This document shows positions 822-11,339 of a stretch of DNA of 64,000 nt, in pieces (position 1 is the first letter of the stretch; each line of letters begins with the position of its first letter). Below the pieces are notes generated by a model that saw nothing but the letters and a program-made list of their open reading frames with translations, was not told where the DNA came from and did not search any database. Made by a program: the position numbers and the translations under genes. Source of the stretch: Nitrosarchaeum sp. GTDB lineage: Archaea; Thermoproteota; Nitrososphaeria; Nitrososphaerales; Nitrosopumilaceae. Location of the stretch: NCBI GenBank assembly GCA_023264875.1, contig JAHFUX010000002.1:1-64000 (forward strand), given 5' to 3'.

Positions 822-1145
822 ATGCATATAGAATATGAAGAATTTGCCACCATCGAAGACCTTTTCTTGTATATGGCATCTGCAGCCCCACCCATGAAAA
901 ACACAATGCCCATTAATTCGTATAAGGGTTACATTATGGCATTTATCCCACTCAGTCCCGCAAATGGAGACACATATCTTATGATTTATGCTAAAGGTAC
1001 ACTTGAATCCGGAATTTATGAATTCGATGTAAATTCAACGTCTTTCAAGAAAGTTGATTCTATTGAACGAGCAGACAAAAATTACTTTGTTTCTTTAACA
1101 CCAAAAAGAAACACTATAGCTGACGAAGCTATTAAAAATCTATAA
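822..1145 (+). CDS. Hypothetical protein, 107 aa
   Basis: A soluble, mixed alpha/beta sequence with no signal peptide or membrane segment. A TATA-like ttattatatt lies about 28 nt before the ATG, which suggests a near-leaderless transcript as is common in archaea. The 3' end overlaps the convergent radical SAM gene by 6 bp. I do not recognise the family. Balanced amino-acid composition and a well-placed promoter argue for a real gene. Confidence 0.65.
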   Translation: MHIEYEEFATIEDLFLYMASAAPPMKNTMPINSYKGYIMAFIPLSPANGDTYLMIYAKGTLESGIYEFDVNSTSFKKVDSIERADKNYFVSLTPKRNTIADEAIKNL

Positions 1146-2753
1146 TTTCTTTGTTATAATTTTAGGGGCAGAAATTGATCTACTTCTAGCATATTTGTCG
1201 ATTATTTCATCTGGGGTTCGTCCATTGAATAGATCTTTGCATAACCCTCTCAAATATCTCATAATTGCCCATGTGCCAGCTTTTAGGATTCCATACATGA
1301 ATACTTTCATTGGCGGACCATATGTTTTATTTCTGAGAATAATTGGAATGATGTCATTGATAACCCGAAGATTATTTTCCCAACATTTCCAAAATAATGT
1401 AAACTGTGCCTCATTCAAGTTTCCAAAATGCATAGAATTCTTTTCACTAAAGTCTTGGTAAAGTAATGGCGCAACTAATCCTCTAAAGTTCATTTCTCTA
1501 AAGTCGCTCATCATATCAATTGTATATTGAACATCATCTGGAGTCTCATCTGGCCAACCTATGATAATTGTTGCAGCTGGAAACCAGTGGTTTTTATTTA
1601 AAATTTTTGCTCCTTCTATTACTACACTACCCCACTCTTCAGATGCAAATGGTCTTGTTTTTACACCCAGATGTTTCTTTACCATATTTGGTGCAACTGT
1701 TTCAATCCCCAAATTTGTTGCAAGCCATCTACCTGTTTCATCTTGTTTGTTAATACTCGAAATTTGTCGCATTAATTCTGGATCTGCGGCAACTGCTGAA
1801 AAAGTCATGTGTGTTGTTCCAATAAAATTGGCTCCTAACCCTTTAAGGCCTTTCCAAAGTTCTGTAATTGCATCTCTATTTGGAATGAAATCTCTATTGT
1901 CACATCCATAAAGTAACATTTCATCAGAATGTAACCAAATAGAGTCAAATCCATAATCTAGGTTAATCTTTGCTTCATGCTGTAATCTTTCTAATGGCAG
2001 ATCTTTCTTTGATCTCTTATTTACATCACAAAAATCACACCCTCTGCCACATCCTCTCATTGCTTCAATGAGGGAATTTATTGTAGGTCCTTCGATAACT
2101 GGAATATTTTGTATGTTCTTTACAAAACAATGCATTAATTCTGGTGCATCTCCTTTTTCTAAATCATGAAATAAATCTAATGCTAATTCATCTGCTTCTC
2201 CAACTACAACTGTATCAATTCCATGAATTTGCATTCTATCTGATTTTGCTAGTTCCCATGCACCATTTCCTCCAACTACTACATGAAAATCATATTTCTT
2301 TTTTAGTTGAATAATACTGGCACACATTTTTTTAAATTTCATTGCAACATATGATAATTTTTCAGGTGACATAGTTGTTGTAACTGGTGCCATTCCAAGA
2401 GGATCCATCACATTAATGCCAACTACCTTAGTATCTGGGCCAATTGATTTTTCAAGCATCTCCGGATTTGCAATAAAGACTTCGTCACGTTTGTATCCTT
2501 GTAGTAACGCACTCTCCACTCTTCTTAATCCTACTTGAGCAACTTTTGATTCACCTGTAATTGGATCTGTTTCAACAGGTGGGCAGAAAACTTTGTCAAA
2601 AACCCATTCTGGAAGTACTTCATATGGTCCACACGCAATAAATCCATACAGAAAATTTCCCCTATAATTTGTCATTAAACTACGATCAGCAGTTAGTACA
2701 ATTCGTTTCCCAGCCAATATTAACAAGATTCGTTCTTGTATGCTATATATCAT
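1140..2753 (-). CDS. B12-binding-type radical SAM protein
   Basis: 537 residues. The central motif RGCGRGCDFC supplies the CxxxCxxC triad (Cys235, Cys239, Cys242) that binds the [4Fe-4S] cluster used to cleave S-adenosylmethionine. The preceding 100-200 region, with VVVGGNGAWEL and VVVGEADEL, resembles the Rossmann-like cobalamin-binding fold that precedes the radical SAM barrel in class B enzymes. The substrate cannot be read from sequence. Archaeal proteins of this architecture include the GDGT ring synthases (GrsA/GrsB), which is a possibility only. It lies 48 bp downstream of larB on the same strand and may be co-transcribed with mdh-larB. Confidence 0.85.
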   Translation of the reverse strand: MIYSIQERILLILAGKRIVLTADRSLMTNYRGNFLYGFIACGPYEVLPEWVFDKVFCPPVETDPITGESKVAQVGLRRVESALLQGYKRDEVFIANPEMLEKSIGPDTKVVGINVMDPLGMAPVTTTMSPEKLSYVAMKFKKMCASIIQLKKKYDFHVVVGGNGAWELAKSDRMQIHGIDTVVVGEADELALDLFHDLEKGDAPELMHCFVKNIQNIPVIEGPTINSLIEAMRGCGRGCDFCDVNKRSKKDLPLERLQHEAKINLDYGFDSIWLHSDEMLLYGCDNRDFIPNRDAITELWKGLKGLGANFIGTTHMTFSAVAADPELMRQISSINKQDETGRWLATNLGIETVAPNMVKKHLGVKTRPFASEEWGSVVIEGAKILNKNHWFPAATIIIGWPDETPDDVQYTIDMMSDFREMNFRGLVAPLLYQDFSEKNSMHFGNLNEAQFTLFWKCWENNLRVINDIIPIILRNKTYGPPMKVFMYGILKAGTWAIMRYLRGLCKDLFNGRTPDEIIDKYARSRSISAPKIITKKL

Positions 2754-2801: not shown

Positions 2802-3584
2802 TTATTTTGTTCTGTTTTTTCGTACTGCTCTATTTGCAATATTTGCCGCTATCGCACCAGCTGCAATTCCATTGTCTATGTTGACTATTGATAATCCTAA
2901 TGAGCAGCTTTGTAGCATTGATGCAAGAGCTGCTATTCCTTTTCCACCGTAACCATATCCTGCAGATATGGGTACTCCAATTACTGGAATATCTACCATT
3001 GATGAAACTAAAGTTGCTAGTGCACCTTCCATTCCAGCAGCCACAATTATACAATCCACTTCCTTCTCTATCATTTCTTTTAAAACTGGAAATATTCTCT
3101 GAATTCCTGCAACTCCTACATCGTAGCTTGCAATACATTTACAATTCATTGCCTCGCACATCAACCTAGATTCTTCAGCAACTCCTATGTCTGATGTTCC
3201 AGCTGTAAGTATGCCTATTTTTCCACCCTCAAATTTTATTGGGTTTTTAAAAAGTAATATTGATGATGAATTTTTTCCAGTTTTAACTTTTACTTTTAAT
3301 TTTTTTGCAAACGATAAAATTTTTGAATAATCATCCTTATTGATTCTTGAAACTACAACTGAATTTGTTTTCTCTAGTGTTTTTTTAATTATTTTTTTAA
3401 TTTCATCTAATTTCTTAGTTTCTGCAAAAACTACTTCTGGTATGCCTTTTCTCTTCCTTCTATTTATGTCGATTTTGGCAATGCCTTCTATTTTTTCAAT
3501 TGAATATAGTGATAATAGCTTTTTTGCATTATCTACTGAAATTTTTCCTTTTTCCAGAGACTCTAAAATTTCATGAATTTCCAA
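2802..3584 (-). CDS. larB: LarB, pyridinium-3,5-biscarboxylic acid mononucleotide synthase
   Basis: 260 residues. The C-terminal half has the PurE/AIR-carboxylase-like fold signatures ILTAGTSDIGVAEE and GYGYGGKGIAAL. Cys227 in LQSCSLG matches the cysteine that forms the covalent adduct with nicotinic acid adenine dinucleotide in characterised LarB. The GIPEVVFAE motif marks the start of the core domain. LarB carboxylates and hydrolyses NaAD, the first step of nickel-pincer nucleotide synthesis. The gene follows mdh by 33 bp on the minus strand and faces away from larC-larE. Confidence 0.93.
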   Translation of the reverse strand: MEIHEILESLEKGKISVDNAKKLLSLYSIEKIEGIAKIDINRRKRKGIPEVVFAETKKLDEIKKIIKKTLEKTNSVVVSRINKDDYSKILSFAKKLKVKVKTGKNSSSILLFKNPIKFEGGKIGILTAGTSDIGVAEESRLMCEAMNCKCIASYDVGVAGIQRIFPVLKEMIEKEVDCIIVAAGMEGALATLVSSMVDIPVIGVPISAGYGYGGKGIAALASMLQSCSLGLSIVNIDNGIAAGAIAANIANRAVRKNRTK

Positions 3585-3617: not shown

Positions 3618-4532
3618 TTAGATTTGTATGCCTGAAATTGCACTCTTTACACTTTGTACTCCAGTATCAAACACTTGTTTTTCTTCAGCATTTAGTTCTA
3701 ATTCGATTATTTTTTCAATGCCGTTCTTTCCAATTACTGCTGGAACTCCTATTGTTACATCTGAATGACCGTATTCTCCATCAAGATATGTTGCAACAGG
3801 TATCACTTGTTTTCTATTTCTTACCACTGATTCAATCATTGCAGAAATTGCATTTCCTGGTGCATGTACTGTTGCACCTTTTAATTCGATAACCTTGGCT
3901 GCAACTTGTCTTGTGTTTTGAACAAGTTCATCTAATTTTTGTTTTGAAAGAAGTGAAGAAAGTGGAATTCCTGAAACTGAGGAGAATCTTGGTAGGGGTA
4001 ACATGTTTTCTCCATGTTCTCCAATCACAAGCGCTCTAATGGAATCACGAGAATGCCCAGTGGCTTCATGGATAAATTGCCTGAATCTGGATAAATCTAA
4101 CATTCCACCCATTCCAAATACTCTGCTTCTATCAAATCCTGAAACCTTGTAGGTAACATATGCCATTGGATCAAGCGGATTTGTCACAGGAATTATCATA
4201 GAATCATTGGCATATTTTTTGATATTTTCTACAACGCTCTTAACAACAGTTGCATTAATTTTTAAAAGATCCATTCTTGTCATTCCTGGTTTTCTTCCAG
4301 AACCTGCTACTACTACTACTATATTGGAACCTTTCATATCTGCAAAATTATTTGAACCCTTTACTTCTACATCAATTCCTTGTTCTGATAACATATGATT
4401 AATGTCCATTGCTTCACCTTGTGGTAACCCTTCTGCAACATCAAGTAATAATATCTGATCATCTAATCGCTTTAATGCTGAGAATAAAGCTGCATCTCCG
4501 CCAACTTTTCCTGAACCTATTATTGTAATCAT
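3618..4532 (-). CDS. mdh: Malate dehydrogenase (LDH/MDH superfamily)
   Basis: 304 residues. Visible features are the N-terminal Rossmann motif GSGKVG, an Asp at position 31 typical of NAD preference, the substrate loop GRKPGMTR with Arg80/Arg86 (Arg in the specificity position favours malate over lactate), and catalytic His173 in GEHGENM. It oxidises malate to oxaloacetate in the cytoplasm and would feed the TCA/gluconeogenic pool used by PEP carboxykinase (42.9 kb). It is first gene of a minus-strand group with larB, divergent from larC across 92 bp. Its place inside a Lar locus is unusual. Confidence 0.93.
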
Positions 4533-4624: not shown

Positions 4625-5848
4625 ATGGTTGTTGTTATAGATCCTCAAATTGCAGGTATATCTGGTGATATGCTTCTTTGCTCTTTAGTGGATTTGGGTG
4701 CAAATAAAGTCAAAATTCTTAACGGTATTAAACTATCTGAAAAATTTCTACCAAATTCCATTATTAAACAAATTGACTTTAGAAAAATTGAGAAACATGG
4801 TATAGAAGCGACTGCATTATTTTTAGAAATTGATGAAAATGTTCATGAACGAAAGGGCATTGAAATAAAAAAAGCAATTATGGATTTAACAAAAGAGGTT
4901 GATCTTTCTAATAGAGCAAAAGTTTTTGCAGAATCTTGTATTGACACACTAATTTCTTCTGAATCAAAAATTCATGGTATCCCTATAGATTCGGTTCATT
5001 TTCACGAGGCATCTAGTATTGATACTTTGATAGATATTGTTGGAGTTGCAATCGCAATAGATGATTTAGGTATGTTTGATGAAGAAATTATCTGTATGCC
5101 TATTGCAGTAGGTGGAGGAAACATGACATTTTCCCATGGTACTATGTCTAATCCAGCAAGTGCCATTCTTGAAATCTTAAAAAATTCTGGATTATCGATT
5201 TATGGTGGTCAAGTAAAAGATGAATTGACTACTCCTACAGGTGCTAGTATTCTTGTACACCTCTCAAAAACCTCAATGGATTATTATCCATCAATGCAGA
5301 TAACATCTATTGGTTATGGTGCAGGAAAAAAAGACTTTGATGAATTTTCAAATGTGTTAAAGATTGTAAAAGGAATACAAAAAAATAATTTTCAATTAGA
5401 CTCTGTTAAAATTCTAGAAACAAATGTTGATGATGTATCTGGAGAAATAATGGGCAATCTAATTGAAAAAATTATGAATAAAGGCGCCAAAGATGTTTCT
5501 ATTTATCATGGCATTACAAAAAAAGGAAGACCTACAAATCTTATCTCTGTAATTTGTGATGATGCTTTTGTGCATGAAATTATGGATATGTTGGTAATTG
5601 AAACTGGAACTTTGGGAATTCGTGTAACTACTTCAAATCGTTTCATCGTTCCAAGAACAACTCATGACGTTAAATTAATTCTTGATGGAAAAGAATTTGT
5701 AGTAAAATACAAAGTTTCATCCTTTAAAGGAAAAAATAACTTTAAAATTGAATTTGATGACTTAAAATTAATCGCAAACACATTAAACAAGTCAATAAAG
5801 GAAACAGAATCATTGATTAGAACAGAAATTATGCAATTAGGTTATTGA
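4625..5848 (+). CDS. larC: LarC, CTP-dependent nickel insertion protein
   Basis: 407 residues. Family motifs are all present in one frame: an N-terminal AGISGDM, VHFHEASSIDTLIDIVG, ELTTPTGASIL and ETNVDDVSGE. LarC inserts nickel into the dithio-pyridinium mononucleotide to complete the pincer cofactor. In some bacteria it is encoded as two overlapping frames joined by frameshift; here it is uninterrupted. It overlaps larE by a few bases, indicating translational coupling. Confidence 0.93.
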   Translation: MVVVIDPQIAGISGDMLLCSLVDLGANKVKILNGIKLSEKFLPNSIIKQIDFRKIEKHGIEATALFLEIDENVHERKGIEIKKAIMDLTKEVDLSNRAKVFAESCIDTLISSESKIHGIPIDSVHFHEASSIDTLIDIVGVAIAIDDLGMFDEEIICMPIAVGGGNMTFSHGTMSNPASAILEILKNSGLSIYGGQVKDELTTPTGASILVHLSKTSMDYYPSMQITSIGYGAGKKDFDEFSNVLKIVKGIQKNNFQLDSVKILETNVDDVSGEIMGNLIEKIMNKGAKDVSIYHGITKKGRPTNLISVICDDAFVHEIMDMLVIETGTLGIRVTTSNRFIVPRTTHDVKLILDGKEFVVKYKVSSFKGKNNFKIEFDDLKLIANTLNKSIKETESLIRTEIMQLGY

Positions 5849-6648
5849 TTATGGCTAAACTTGATAATCTCATCGATTGGTTTGGAAACAAAACCAAGGT
5901 GATAGTTGCTCTTTCTGGTGGAGTAGATAGTGCACTTGTAGCATATGCTGCATTTCAAAAATTAGGACATTCTGCAATAGCAGTTACTGCCGACTACAAA
6001 ACTTTATCAAAAGAGGAACTTGAAACCGCCAAACAAATTTGTTTAGAGATAGGAATAAAACAAATTCTTTTAGATTATGATGAGCTTCAAAATGAAGAAT
6101 TTGTTAAAAATGCATCTGATCGTTGTTTTCATTGCAGAATGGAATTAGGTGATCATTTGATTACTCTGGCAAAAGAACATGATGTTAAATTTATTGTAGA
6201 TGGGACTAATTTGGATGATTTAGGTGATTATAGACCTGGAATTGAAGCATTAAAAAGAAATGGTATTAGAAGTCCATTGGTAGAAACCAATTTTACAAAA
6301 AATGAAATTAGAACAACTGCAAAACTGATAGGATTATCTGTATATGATAAACCATCTAATTCTTGTCTAGCATCACGTATTCCTTGGGGACAAAAAGTCA
6401 CAGCCGAAAAATTAACTCGAATAGAATTAGGAGAAACAATTGTTAAACAAATTACAAATTTAAAACAAGTTAGAGTTAGAGATCTTAATGGAGTTGCTAA
6501 AATTGAAGTGGATAAAGATAAAATTTCTGTTTTTGAGGATAACATTTTAGATGAAATAACCCGTAAATTAGAATTAATTGGATTTTTATCAGTTAAAATC
6601 GATCCCGATGGGTATAGACCAGGAAAAATTAACGTGATTACAGATTGA
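5845..6648 (+). CDS. larE: LarE, sulfur transferase of nickel-pincer synthesis, three-cysteine type
   Basis: 267 residues from a TTG overlapping the larC stop; an ATG six bases later (5851) is an equally good start. The PP-loop SGGVDS (residues 24-29) adenylates the substrate carboxylate. Three cysteines stand out: Cys94 and Cys97 in CFHC, and Cys174 in NSCLASR, the position of the sacrificial cysteine in Lactobacillus LarE. The three-Cys pattern is that reported for LarE proteins carrying a [4Fe-4S] cluster that shuttles sulfur catalytically. The next gene is a cysteine desulfurase overlapping by 4 bp, a plausible sulfur source. Confidence 0.92.
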   Translation: MIMAKLDNLIDWFGNKTKVIVALSGGVDSALVAYAAFQKLGHSAIAVTADYKTLSKEELETAKQICLEIGIKQILLDYDELQNEEFVKNASDRCFHCRMELGDHLITLAKEHDVKFIVDGTNLDDLGDYRPGIEALKRNGIRSPLVETNFTKNEIRTTAKLIGLSVYDKPSNSCLASRIPWGQKVTAEKLTRIELGETIVKQITNLKQVRVRDLNGVAKIEVDKDKISVFEDNILDEITRKLELIGFLSVKIDPDGYRPGKINVITD

Positions 6649-7805
6649 TCTATCTTGATAATGCAGCATCAACACAAATTCATGAAGATGTCTTAGATGC
6701 AATGCTGCCCTATCTTAAAGAGCAATATGGCAATCCTTCCTCAATACATCGTTACGGTAGATTAGCCAATAAAGCTATAGAAAAAGCTAGAAAACAAATT
6801 GCTATGTTGATTAATGCAGATTCTTCTGAAATTTTACTTACTTCTGGTGGAACTGAATCCAATAACACTGCACTTTATGGAATTGCAGAGAAAAAACCTC
6901 ATTCTCAAATAATTACTTCATCTATTGAACATGATGCTATACTTGAACCATGTAAAAAATTAGCCAAAGATGGATTTGATGTAATCTATTTACCTGTTGA
7001 TACTCATGGGGTAGTTAATCTATCTATTCTGAAAAACTCTCTCTCTGATAATACATGTCTTGTTTCAATTATGTTTGGAAATAATGAAATGGGAACAATA
7101 GAACCTATTGCTCAAATTGCTCAACTATGTAATGAACAAAATATTCCATTTCATACAGATGCAGTTCAGGCTGTAGGAAAAATCCCAATTGATGTCAAAA
7201 AATTAGGCATAGATTTGCTTTCAATCTCCTCTCATAAAATTAATGGACCAAAAGGAATTGGAGCATTATACATTAGAAAAGGAATTGACATTAATCCAAT
7301 TATTTTAGGAGGAGGTCAAGAACATGGTTTACGTTCAGGCACTGAAAATGTAGCAAATATTGTGGGATTTGGAAAAGCATGTGAACTTGCTAAACTCAAT
7401 TTATCTGATAATATCTCTCACATGAAAAAACTTCGTGATTATCTCGTTGCAAAAATTCTCAGAGAAATCTCAGGTGTTATTCTTAATGGCCATGCTGAAA
7501 ATCGGTTACCAAATAACGCTCATTTTACTTTTTTTGGAGTTGCTGGTGAAGATTTGATTATAAAGTTAGATGAATATGGTATAGCTGCATCAACTGGTTC
7601 TGCATGTTCAGTGCATACACAAAAAGCATCTCATGTTTTACAGGCTATGGGATTCTCACATGAACAAATTACTGGTTCATTAAGATTGACACTTGGATTG
7701 TTTAACAATCAACAACAAATAGATGAGACAGTAAACATCTTAAAAAAAGTAACAGCAGAACTTCGTTCAGTCTCACCCTTTAAAGACAAATACTCTTTTA
7801 ACTGA
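6645..7805 (+). CDS. Cysteine desulfurase (NifS/IscS family)
   Basis: 386 residues, starting from a TTG that overlaps the larE stop. The PLP-binding lysine is Lys198 in SSHKINGPKG, and the persulfide cysteine is Cys321 in STGSACS, set in a group I (IscS/NifS-like) loop. It converts cysteine to alanine and carries the sulfur as persulfide. General roles would be Fe-S assembly and thiolation, but overlap with larE suggests service to LarE. Whether it is also the cell's main Fe-S desulfurase cannot be told from this window. Confidence 0.93.
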   Translation: MIYLDNAASTQIHEDVLDAMLPYLKEQYGNPSSIHRYGRLANKAIEKARKQIAMLINADSSEILLTSGGTESNNTALYGIAEKKPHSQIITSSIEHDAILEPCKKLAKDGFDVIYLPVDTHGVVNLSILKNSLSDNTCLVSIMFGNNEMGTIEPIAQIAQLCNEQNIPFHTDAVQAVGKIPIDVKKLGIDLLSISSHKINGPKGIGALYIRKGIDINPIILGGGQEHGLRSGTENVANIVGFGKACELAKLNLSDNISHMKKLRDYLVAKILREISGVILNGHAENRLPNNAHFTFFGVAGEDLIIKLDEYGIAASTGSACSVHTQKASHVLQAMGFSHEQITGSLRLTLGLFNNQQQIDETVNILKKVTAELRSVSPFKDKYSFN

Positions 7806-7808
7806 ATT

Positions 7809-8606
7809 CTAAATGTGCATCTGAAATTTATTTTTTGTAACAAATATTGTTGTTATAATTCCTATTGCCAAAATCATCATTGCAATTGTGCCAAATTCTG
7901 GAATTATAGTAGTACCTATTATTTCAATATCTGAATCACCTTGTTCAAAATTGATCGTAATTACTCTCGAGTTTGAATCTGTTATGGTTTCTTGATATGG
8001 TGCTTCAATTCCATCTATTATTATTATGAATATATCATCTGTTTCATCTTGTTTTTTTGCATCTAGGGCATATCTTGGAATCTCTAATGAAATAGATCCA
8101 TCATCGGTCGATTCAATCATTACTATTAATGCAAAAATGTCTTCATCTACCAACATATTTTTTACAGTTCCACCTTCTATGGAATATTCTACATCAAATG
8201 TGCCATGATTGCCTGCATCTACTTCAAATGTTTTTGTCTCAGATGTCTCTGTTTTTGGTGAAAAAGTAAATTGAGTTTCTGCAATATTTCCTTCCCCAAA
8301 TGATACTCTTATTGTGTATTCACCTGCTTTAGACCATAGAGGACCCTCAGCTCTCACTGTATGTGAGTAATTACCATCTTCTGCTACTGTAATCTGTGCA
8401 ATATCTACTAAATTATCTTGGCCGAAAATTTGCATTGTTACCGGAGTACCTGTTATGATGGTACTTACTTTGCCGGAAATTACTATGGTTTCTCCTTCTT
8501 TATAGGAATTAGCATCTGTTTCTACAGAAATTAATGATTCTGCAAAAGCTGGCAAAGTAAAAACAATTAATAAAATTAAAAATCCCAAAATAATTCTAAT
8601 CTTCAC
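7809..8606 (-). CDS. PEFG-CTERM surface protein, paralogue 1
   Basis: 265 residues. A signal peptide ends at PAFA. Next comes an Ig-like module (about 25-115) of the pattern TDxxxYxxGExIxxSGxV...GxYTIRVSFG, then a second beta-rich domain, then PEFG followed by a hydrophobic helix and Lys/His tail. This is the thaumarchaeal PEFG-CTERM sorting signal, an archaeosortase-type target. It converges with the cysteine desulfurase. Its 3' end is diverged from the identical tails of the next three paralogues. Confidence 0.85.
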   Translation of the reverse strand: MKIRIILGFLILLIVFTLPAFAESLISVETDANSYKEGETIVISGKVSTIITGTPVTMQIFGQDNLVDIAQITVAEDGNYSHTVRAEGPLWSKAGEYTIRVSFGEGNIAETQFTFSPKTETSETKTFEVDAGNHGTFDVEYSIEGGTVKNMLVDEDIFALIVMIESTDDGSISLEIPRYALDAKKQDETDDIFIIIIDGIEAPYQETITDSNSRVITINFEQGDSDIEIIGTTIIPEFGTIAMMILAIGIITTIFVTKNKFQMHI

Positions 8607-8675
8607 AAATTTATGACTGCATGATTCTATATTTCCTTTACTATCTAAAATGAAAAAATGGAAAAAGTTGTGAAT

Positions 8676-8777
8676 TTAGTATCTTGGCATAATGCTTAGT
8701 CTTGATTTTGCAGATACTGCAATTATTGATATAATTGCTACTGCTAGAATCATAACTGCGATTGTACCAAATTCTGG
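8676..8777 (-). repeat. 102-nt identical repeat, copy A (3' end of PEFG paralogue 2)
   Basis: From the stop codon through PEFG codons this segment is base-for-base identical to copies B and C. Identity with copy B continues about 23 nt further into the 3' flank (aaaaaatggaaaaagttg...). Confidence 0.95.
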
Positions 8778-9527
8778 GACTACGAAAGTACCTACCACTT
8801 CAATTTTTTCAGCGCCTGCTGGGAACATTATTGTGACTTCATTGCCACTAATTTCCACATCGTTCCATTCTTGTCCATCTACAAGTACCATAAAGATACC
8901 GCTAAGAATTGATTCGTCTGGAGTTAATGTGAGTGTTCCATCTTCATCTGCGCTAATTCTAATGATAATTGAGTTATCATTATTGTTGATGCTTGCACCA
9001 GTTACCATCCCACCTGAAATACTGTATGGTACACAATAATCGCCCTTTAGATATATCTCTGAAGAACTACAATTGTCTGAGCTAGCTGAAGCTTCACCCG
9101 TTAATTCAACAAGTACTTTGTTATTTTTTTGAGAAGTTCCATAGTTGACTTTAATGGTGTATGTACCATCATGTTTCCACAATCCACCTTCTGTGTTGAG
9201 AATCGTTTCAAAACTACCGTCACTGCCAACATCTATCTGAGCAATTGTAACGACAGAATTTAATGGACTCACAACAGTAAGTGTTACTGGAAATCCAGAA
9301 ACATTTGCTACTTTACCTTGTACTGTAATTTTGTCATTATGATCATAGGTTGTTCTATCTGTCCAAACAGATATTGGCATATCCATAAGCAACATTTGAT
9401 TTGCTGCCTTTCTTCCATTATCTGCTTCTTCACAACCTACACATGCTTGAGCATATGCTGATGACATGGTTAAAGTACCGACTGCAGTCAAAACGGCTAA
9501 TAGCACGAACGACGTACGGTTGTTCAT
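8676..9527 (-). CDS. PEFG-CTERM surface protein, paralogue 2
   Basis: 283 residues. A signal peptide ends near AYAQA and is followed by CVGCEE, a cysteine pair close to the mature N-terminus. An Ig-like module follows (about 53-140, TDRTTYDHND through TIKVNYG), then a second beta domain, then VVPEFG, a membrane helix and the basic tail KSRLSIMPRY. The final 102 nt are identical to paralogues 3 and 4, while the bodies are strongly diverged. It probably has its own promoter in the short upstream gap. Predicted exported and surface-anchored; ligand unknown. Confidence 0.85.
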   Translation of the reverse strand: MNNRTSFVLLAVLTAVGTLTMSSAYAQACVGCEEADNGRKAANQMLLMDMPISVWTDRTTYDHNDKITVQGKVANVSGFPVTLTVVSPLNSVVTIAQIDVGSDGSFETILNTEGGLWKHDGTYTIKVNYGTSQKNNKVLVELTGEASASSDNCSSSEIYLKGDYCVPYSISGGMVTGASINNNDNSIIIRISADEDGTLTLTPDESILSGIFMVLVDGQEWNDVEISGNEVTIMFPAGAEKIEVVGTFVVPEFGTIAVMILAVAIISIIAVSAKSRLSIMPRY

Positions 9528-9590
9528 CTTATTTGCGAATTGAACCCATCTCTATTTATGTATATTTAAAAAATGGAAAAAGTTGTGAAT

Positions 9591-9692
9591 TTAGTATCTT
9601 GGCATAATGCTTAGTCTTGATTTTGCAGATACTGCAATTATTGATATAATTGCTACTGCTAGAATCATAACTGCGATTGTACCAAATTCTGG
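9591..9692 (-). repeat. 102-nt identical repeat, copy B (3' end of PEFG paralogue 3)
   Basis: Identical to copies A and C over the anchor-coding segment, although the protein body upstream has a different domain order. Confidence 0.95.
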
Positions 9693-10445
9693 AATTACAA
9701 CACCGTCTTTTATTCCGACTTCAATAGAATACTTGTATTTAGGATCGTCGCCTTGTTGAGCTACAATTGTGTACTGACCGTCTTGATTCCATAATGGACC
9801 TCCAGTTGTAATATCTTTAAGAAAATGACTATTTGTATCTAGAATTGGTGCAAATTGATCAACAACAACTACGTTTCCATTAGGTGCTATTACTTTAATT
9901 GTAATACTATTTGCACTGTCTGTAGTTCCCATTATTGTAATTATGTTAGATCCTGCCATTGCATTTGATTCTTTAATTACCAAGCCTTTTCTTTCTGTAG
10001 GTTTTGGTTCAAAAAATCCTGTTTCTAAATTGGATTCAGTTACATCTGTTTCTGAAGTCATACCATTGATTATTTCAACACGAAGTGATGCTTTATACAA
10101 TGAACTTCCATGTGGGCTTTGTTCAACTTTAATTGTATAAAATCCACTCTCTTTCCACATTGGATTTACTTTGAATTCTATGGCAAAGTCCCCATTTGCA
10201 TCAGGTGTTACTTGACCTACACTAATTACATTTAGACTAGGAGAAATTACTGTAAATGTCATATCTGTAATTTGTGACATTGTATGTCCACTTACTGATA
10301 TGGTGTCTGAACCTTCTGAGGCTATAGCTGAAACTGACATTCCTGTCTCTTGAGCAAAAGCATTCTGTTGAATTGAGGTTATTGAAATTATTGACAATGC
10401 TATTAGGGCTAATGTCACTGATGTTGTTGAACGTTTAAAACTCAT
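9591..10445 (-). CDS. PEFG-CTERM surface protein, paralogue 3
   Basis: 284 residues. A signal peptide ends near AFAQE. Two Ig-like modules follow instead of one: about 33-125 (TISVSGH... to YTIKVEQS) and about 160-250 (IITIMGT... to YTIVAQQG). The tail VIPEFG, helix and KSRLSIMPRY follow directly. It lacks the second beta domain seen in paralogues 1, 2 and 4, so the common tail is attached to a different architecture. A tail swap or conversion is one explanation. Confidence 0.85.
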   Translation of the reverse strand: MSFKRSTTSVTLALIALSIISITSIQQNAFAQETGMSVSAIASEGSDTISVSGHTMSQITDMTFTVISPSLNVISVGQVTPDANGDFAIEFKVNPMWKESGFYTIKVEQSPHGSSLYKASLRVEIINGMTSETDVTESNLETGFFEPKPTERKGLVIKESNAMAGSNIITIMGTTDSANSITIKVIAPNGNVVVVDQFAPILDTNSHFLKDITTGGPLWNQDGQYTIVAQQGDDPKYKYSIEVGIKDGVVIPEFGTIAVMILAVAIISIIAVSAKSRLSIMPRY

Positions 10446-10508
10446 TCTAATTTGGAAACGGTTACTTGGTATTTATATATATTTTTAAAAAGAGAAAAAA
10501 AGATGAAT

Positions 10509-10610
10509 TTAGTATCTTGGCATAATGCTTAGTCTTGATTTTGCAGATACTGCAATTATTGATATAATTGCTACTGCTAGAATCATAACTGCGATTGTAC
10601 CAAATTCTGG
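10509..10610 (-). repeat. 102-nt identical repeat, copy C (3' end of PEFG paralogue 4)
   Basis: Identical to copies A and B over 102 nt. The 3' flank is only partly similar to theirs. Confidence 0.95.
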
Positions 10611-11339
10611 GACTACGACAGTACCAATTATCTCGATTTCCTCAGCACCTGCTGGGAATTGTATTGTTAGTGTTCTATCCGTAGATGTTGTTGTTTCCTC
10701 AAAGTCGACTTCTTCTCCGTCTACTAAGACAAAGAATGTATCATCTTGATCACCCATCTTTGCATCAATCAAAGCTCTTGGTAATGTGATGACAAGTGAC
10801 CCGTCCTGACTTGCAGTTATTGCTATTGTCAGGGAGTGTGCTTCTACATCAGGAGTAATGCTAACAAGCTTACCGCCAGTTATCTTGTAGCTGACCATAA
10901 ATTCAGTACCTTCAACTTTTATTTTGGTTCCTTCACTTGGCGTTCCTGTTGATCCGCCGAATGTAAATGTGGTTTCAGCTGTTCGAGATTCGGTTCCATA
11001 GAGTACTGCAATCGTGTATGTTCCTTCAGATTTCATAAGCGCTCCTCCGGCAGTTAATTCAGTATTGAATTTTTTGTCTGAACCAACATCGATTTGTGCA
11101 ACTGATACTAGGTTGCCATTAGGTGCTATTACTCTGAGACTAACAGGATATCCTGAAAGAAGTTCTCTTACTTCTCCAGTTACTAAGATTGTTTCCCCAT
11201 CTGCATACGATGGTTTGTCTGTAGTAACTACGATTGAATCCGCTATTTGTCCAAATGCTGGTGCTATTCCAATACTTGCAATAATAATTGCAGATAAGGT
11301 AAACACCGATAGATGAGTATTCATCATTTTTACGCTCAA
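10509..11339 (-). CDS. PEFG-CTERM surface protein, paralogue 4
   Basis: 276 residues. A signal peptide ends at AFGQ. The Ig-like module (about 36-125) runs from TDKPSYADGE to YTIAVLYG. A second domain (about 140-240) ends EIEIIGTVVVPEFG, matching the layout of paralogues 1 and 2. The anchor helix and KSRLSIMPRY tail follow. It is divergent from the rpoH-rpoB-rpoA operon. Predicted exported, processed at PEFG and attached to membrane lipid or glycan; this is inference from the sorting-signal family. Confidence 0.85.
   Translation of the reverse strand: MSVKMMNTHLSVFTLSAIIIASIGIAPAFGQIADSIVVTTDKPSYADGETILVTGEVRELLSGYPVSLRVIAPNGNLVSVAQIDVGSDKKFNTELTAGGALMKSEGTYTIAVLYGTESRTAETTFTFGGSTGTPSEGTKIKVEGTEFMVSYKITGGKLVSITPDVEAHSLTIAITASQDGSLVITLPRALIDAKMGDQDDTFFVLVDGEEVDFEETTTSTDRTLTIQFPAGAEEIEIIGTVVVPEFGTIAVMILAVAIISIIAVSAKSRLSIMPRY

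Follow-up and report, generated by a model that had tools for sequence, protein, structure and literature searches.

Nickel-pincer nucleotide biosynthesis genes in an ammonia-oxidising archaeon: a probable multi-turnover [4Fe-4S]-type LarE with a likely but replaceable cysteine desulfurase partner

Introduction

The LarE protein of Thermotoga maritima holds a [4Fe-4S] cluster through Cys92, Cys95 and Cys172 (the discussion of the same paper gives Cys96 once), retains its cysteine sulfur, and performs multiple turnovers with IscS and cysteine, with Escherichia coli IscS handing sulfane sulfur directly to the cluster-loaded enzyme (PMC9283937). The mechanism of LarE proteins with this CxxC-C pattern, including IscS as sulfur donor, was already published in 2022 (PMC9283937). 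An archaeal counterpart from Methanococcus maripaludis is represented by 8CNZ, a [4Fe-4S] LarE structure phased by Fe-SAD; Fe-S assembly in that organism is thought to depend on sulfide and not on a cysteine desulfurase (PMC12584684). Orphan larBCE genes are known in cyanobacteria, in approximately 15% of about 1,000 genomes surveyed (PMC11796402), and larBCE has been noted for Haloferax (PMC8305020).

Here we analyse a 64,000-nucleotide stretch of a Nitrosarchaeum sp. contig (JAHFUX010000002.1), referred to below as the window, together with a sample of 300 genomes of the same class. Our analysis indicates that the window probably carries a locus for the biosynthesis of nickel-pincer nucleotide (NPN), in which LarE is of the [4Fe-4S], multi-turnover type and the paired desulfurase is its usual but replaceable source of sulfide.

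Results

Host genome and organization of the lar locus

The genome from which the window derives comprises 1.33 Mb in 61 contigs and is 97% complete. An archaeal amoA was found in it, and the closest named relatives of its LarE belong to Nitrosarchaeum assemblies (97% identity), which together identify the host as an ammonia-oxidising archaeon.

Profile matches revealed that LarB, LarC and LarE, the members of the NPN pathway, are all present at the window locus. LarB (2802..3584, minus strand), a NaAD carboxylase/hydrolase of 260 aa, matched NF033503 with 240 bits against a cut-off of 175, while LarC (4625..5848, plus strand), the nickel insertion protein, has 407 aa with both halves fused, scoring above cut-off for TIGR00299 (167 bits) and NF052512 (102 bits) and reaching 347 bits for PF01969. 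LarE, the sulfur insertase, follows as a protein of 265 aa (5851..6648, plus strand), and is itself followed by a group I (IscS/NifS-type) cysteine desulfurase of 386 aa (6645..7805, plus strand). The interval between larB and larC is occupied by an LDH-like malate dehydrogenase gene (3618..4532, minus strand; PRK06223, 383 bits), whose product is probably outside the NPN pathway because the gene is retained where larBCE has been lost. A B12-binding-type radical SAM protein (1140..2753, minus strand; PF04055) is a further conserved neighbour. On the minus strand at 7809-11339, the window also encodes four tandem secreted paralogues whose C-terminal PEFGTIA...transmembrane tail resembles PEFG-CTERM sorting signals.

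The same assembly contains a second lar locus on another contig (G000:C60, locus L139). Its LarB, LarC and LarE are about 58-68% identical to the window copies, so that the contig is probably a stray from another species and not the product of a duplication.

LarE belongs to the cluster-bearing class

LarE scored 260.9 bits for TIGR00268 (E 1e-77), where the cut-off is 150. Its homologues start at the position of ATG 5851, with an upstream TTG at 5845 as the alternative start, and this choice affects residue numbering: the cysteines named in the original prediction as Cys94, Cys97 and Cys174 are real, and become Cys92, Cys95 and Cys172 when counted from the ATG. The codons of these three predicted cluster ligands lie on the plus strand at 6124..6126, 6133..6135 and 6364..6366, respectively. 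Conservation of all three had been proposed as a check, and the alignment bears it out, since each is invariant in 102 of 102 LarE proteins, with no loss in relatives. Among five additional loci that we inspected, four have the three cysteines intact, and L139, which is clipped by a contig end, retains the first two. Cys64, a fourth cysteine, varies and is shared by 44 of the 102 proteins.

The surrounding residues are those expected of a LarE enzyme. The PP-loop reads SGGVDS, in agreement with the SGGxDS pattern, with S22, G23, G24, D26 and S27 invariant, and S175, R208 and R210 align with S180, R212 and R214, the proposed phosphate ligands of Lactobacillus plantarum LarE. An AlphaFold (AF2) model of the protein was obtained with a pLDDT of 92 and a pTM of 0.87, and its top match in the PDB was 8CNZ, mmLarE-[4Fe-4S] (E 9e-23, TM 0.87/0.90, 31% identity), with all three cysteines aligned with cysteines of that structure and Cys92 falling on its RCYNCK motif. 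The CxxC-C pattern announced by the original prediction is thus present, at the very numbers of the Thermotoga [4Fe-4S] ligands, and both the sequence and the predicted structure argue strongly for membership of LarE in the cluster-bearing class.

We considered whether LarE could instead be sacrificial, as in L. plantarum, losing a cysteine sulfur for each transfer. The NCBIfam name of TIGR00268, 'sacrificial sulfur transferase', speaks for this reading, but the name spans both types, and the residues point elsewhere: Ser171 stands where L. plantarum LarE has its sacrificial Cys176, with Cys172 one residue off, and the CxxC pair, invariant here, aligns with non-cysteine residues in the L. plantarum protein. 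A sacrificial LarE is consequently very improbable, and the catalytic route favoured by the original prediction is well supported, owing to the invariant CxxC-C, Ser171 at the sacrificial site, and 8CNZ as best PDB match. By analogy with its homologues, LarE would carry a [4Fe-4S] cluster, turn over many times, and accept donated sulfur.

On the proposed mechanism, LarB would convert NaAD to P2CMN, and LarE would adenylylate each carboxylate of P2CMN. Attack on the adenylylated carboxylate would then come from a noncore sulfide bound at the open iron site of the [4Fe-4S] cluster held by Cys92, Cys95 and Cys172, so that LarE could turn over without destroying itself, and LarC would insert nickel. 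The usual source of the noncore sulfide would be the co-translated IscS-type desulfurase, replaceable by SufS or free sulfide.

The paired desulfurase is conserved but not obligatory

The desulfurase starts at TTG 6645 and, as stated in the original prediction, has an intact SACS persulfide loop, GSAC(321)S, with the persulfide Cys321 encoded at 7605-7607; the PLP lysine is Lys198 in SSHK198 (codon 7236-7238). It matches Archaeoglobus fulgidus IscS (4r5f) with an E value of 2e-110 and passes the broader subfamily PRK02948 (312.5 bits against a cut-off of 304). The PLP lysine and the GSACS cysteine thus place the protein in group I, although the curated equivalog cut-offs are not reached, narrowly for NifS (511.3 against 530.75 bits), nor that for IscS (398.3 against 643.2 bits).

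The stop codon of larE overlaps the start of the desulfurase gene by four nucleotides, TTGA (6645..6648, plus strand), in which TGA is the stop and TTG the start. An overlap of exactly -4 is kept in 42 loci (41 TTGA and one ATGA, a few of these being the same genome counted twice) and persists down to desulfurase identities of 47-57%; the gene order LarC-LarE-desulfurase is common to the family of the window and several others. The overlap had been taken as direct evidence for coupling, a claim that is not supported, because overlaps are common (of the 43 co-directional gene pairs in the window, 9 overlap by 1-20 nt) and because LarE and the desulfurase occur separately in both directions. LarE proteins with all three cysteines are found with no such desulfurase adjoining at L058, L089/L140 (both in the single-contig genome G046), L122/L123 and L142. 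By-hand comparison of the LarE, desulfurase and AmoA lists for the 300-genome sample, in which absences from fragmented assemblies may represent gaps, yielded at least 19 AmoA-positive genomes, G046 included, with a full LarE and no match to the paired desulfurase at E<=1e-60. Conversely, genome G185 (locus L141, contig G185:C129) keeps the radical SAM, malate dehydrogenase and desulfurase genes, the last two separated by just ~125 bp, with larB, larC and larE absent; in this ammonia oxidiser the NPN pathway has been lost naturally from a locus that is otherwise intact. The desulfurase is therefore not present if and only if LarE is present, as a dedicated donor would be.

This dissociation leaves room for a reading in which the neighbour of LarE is an IscS/NifS enzyme of general purpose, engaged in Fe-S assembly and tRNA thiolation, that shares only an operon with it, the overlap being ordinary gene packing. 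Such a role would suit the frequency of overlaps in the window, the survival of the gene in G185 and its absence from the LarE-bearing genomes just described; on the other hand, gene order and the exact -4 overlap are kept in 42 loci, the adjacency to LarE extends to other AmoA-positive families (f3 and f5), and the genome of the window already encodes a second desulfurase, SufS, adjoining SufU. We regard a purely general-purpose enzyme as less likely than not.

A related question is whether the noncore sulfide comes from free sulfide or SufS, with the paired desulfurase acting as an auxiliary supplier. In most of the desulfurase-lacking, LarE-positive genomes tested we observed SufS-strength Aminotran_5 matches, among them G046, where a three-cysteine LarE stands in a single-contig assembly, and the M. 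maripaludis enzyme, also of the [4Fe-4S] type, functions in a host thought to rely on sulfide for Fe-S assembly. Against this stand the direct transfer from E. coli IscS to cluster-loaded T. maritima LarE (PMC9283937) and the LarE-desulfurase pairing kept in most of the ammonia oxidisers sampled, and we consider this second alternative, too, less likely than not. The Methanococcus case also means that three cysteines alone imply no desulfurase. Delivery of cysteine-derived sulfur to a [4Fe-4S] LarE, as the original prediction had it, is supported insofar as it draws on the IscS-type neighbour and the published IscS precedent, and does not follow from the cysteines alone.

Taken together, our preferred reading of the desulfurase as the usual, replaceable sulfide source makes it a likely, non-obligatory partner of LarE. 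The link may be looser than this explanation states, since at least 19 AmoA-positive genomes with LarE lack the desulfurase, which in G185 outlives larE.

NPN genes are near-universal in ammonia oxidisers and canonical LarA is scarce

To our knowledge, the only known users of NPN are racemases and epimerases of the LarA family. We compared match lists by hand across the 300 genomes of the class, of which 201 encode AmoA. Within these 201, LarE was detected in 189 (E<1e-60) and LarC in 194, and canonical LarA in four (G128, G175, G239 and G241). Both LarE and LarC are present in all 31 of the single-contig AmoA-positive genomes, and these gave no LarA match by PF09861 or by profile A1, a full-length profile that we built from 12 LarA proteins. 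Neither search found a canonical LarA client in the genome of the window, an absence that the original prediction had overlooked. PF09861 was silent in the Corynebacterium glutamicum control, from which a LarA homologue has been reported, so that a divergent LarA could be missed in these counts, and A1 is a partial remedy. A weak A1 match in G083 proved to be false, being CoaBC by sequence.

That LarA is confined to a small number of sediment lineages is in line with PMC8397731, in whose text we found no mention of larC or of the pincer cofactor. Four loci in families f16, f21 and f11 (L049, L042, L050 and L051) encode a LarA with a complete NPN site in genomes that gave no LarC match and in which LarE stayed below cut-off; NPN may be scavenged or made by a divergent route there, or detection may have failed. 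In family f7, the LarA ORFs (L046, L047, L048 and L052) have about 655-669 aa, and in the two that were scanned (L047 and L048) LarA carries a cytidylyltransferase (CTP_transf_3) domain fused to its N-terminus, a hint that the substrate may be a sugar acid.

Neither LarC nor LarE is found in G185, G098, G181, G192 and G229, the last four having possibly lost larBCE as G185 did, and the 16 AmoA-negative genomes of family f4 have no LarC and no LarE over cut-off.

A divergent LarA-fold protein and other candidate clients

Profile A1 also exposed a LarA-fold protein of roughly 360-400 aa in 271 of the 300 genomes, encoded in the genome of the window at G000:C15:39723-40808 (L175:1507-2586) between the gene of an M50-type protease and pyrE. 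It is homologous to LarA by profile comparison (97.5% probability, E 5e-12) and shares the fold of the LarA structures 6c1w/2yjg (E about 1e-18, query TM 0.71-0.78), while the four scanned members fall far short of the NCBIfam cut-offs for racemases. Homology and wide occurrence would recommend this protein as the NPN client, but Asp72, His108, His174, Lys184 and His200 are retained by none of 23 sequences, so that all tested NPN-binding, nickel-coordinating and acid/base residues of LarA are lost. Its presence where both LarC and LarE are missing, namely in f4 and the five genomes named above, likewise makes it an unlikely client. We found no report, in the open-access literature, of a LarA-fold protein that occurs throughout the class and lacks the NPN site. 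A protein tested as LarAH12, from 'Ca. Nitrososphaera gargensis', showed no activity (PMC7583248) and may be a member of this divergent family.

Other candidates were rejected. The malate dehydrogenase and the radical SAM protein, considered for their synteny, are unlikely clients because both remain in G185 without larB, larC and larE. The genome of the window encodes no DUF362 protein, a family whose Pfam clan also contains LarA, so that DUF362 is not the client.

Discussion

The distribution of these genes raises the possibility that ammonia-oxidising archaea as a group make NPN for a client other than canonical LarA, an unrecognised NPN-dependent enzyme that would be near-universal among them; we consider the chances of this proposition to be evenly balanced. 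Our search of the open-access literature found no paper linking ammonia-oxidising archaea with the nickel-pincer cofactor, and the near-universal occurrence of larBCE in this group appears to be new in that literature, the LarE mechanism itself being known. With this observation the missing-client question, so far one of cyanobacteria, extends to archaea of central ecological importance, for which relatives that have lost larBCE (G185, and possibly G098, G181, G192 and G229) and the LarE-free family f4 offer the comparisons for a client search. It also recasts the desulfurase as a swappable partner, correcting an over-reading of the gene overlap.

With respect to known systems, the locus resembles the orphan larBCE of cyanobacteria in having NPN genes without LarA; the cyanobacterial set has been shown to make NPN (PMC11796402), whereas for that of ammonia oxidisers NPN synthesis is predicted from the genes. 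The desulfurase resembles A. fulgidus IscS (4R5F/4EB5), of NifS/IscS group I, in its whole-length match, PLP lysine and GSACS loop, and differs from that group in scoring below the equivalog cut-offs and in adjoining LarE. The sacrificial LarE of L. plantarum (5UDQ) shares the fold, the PP-loop and the substrate phosphate residues, but has Cys176 where Ser171 stands here and no CxxC pair. M. maripaludis LarE (8CNZ/8CP4) is likewise an archaeal [4Fe-4S] LarE, with three ligands aligned to those of the window protein, whose cluster is predicted; M. maripaludis, however, is believed to assemble its Fe-S clusters from sulfide and not by way of a cysteine desulfurase (PMC12584684). In T. maritima, the desulfurase genes lie far from larE and in the window they adjoin it, the fourth cysteine Cys174 corresponds to Ala174 here, and a LarA homologue is present, where the genome of the window has no canonical one; the two systems share the NPN pathway, an IscS-type donor, predicted for the window, and a CxxC-C pattern at residues 92, 95 and 172 (PMC9283937).
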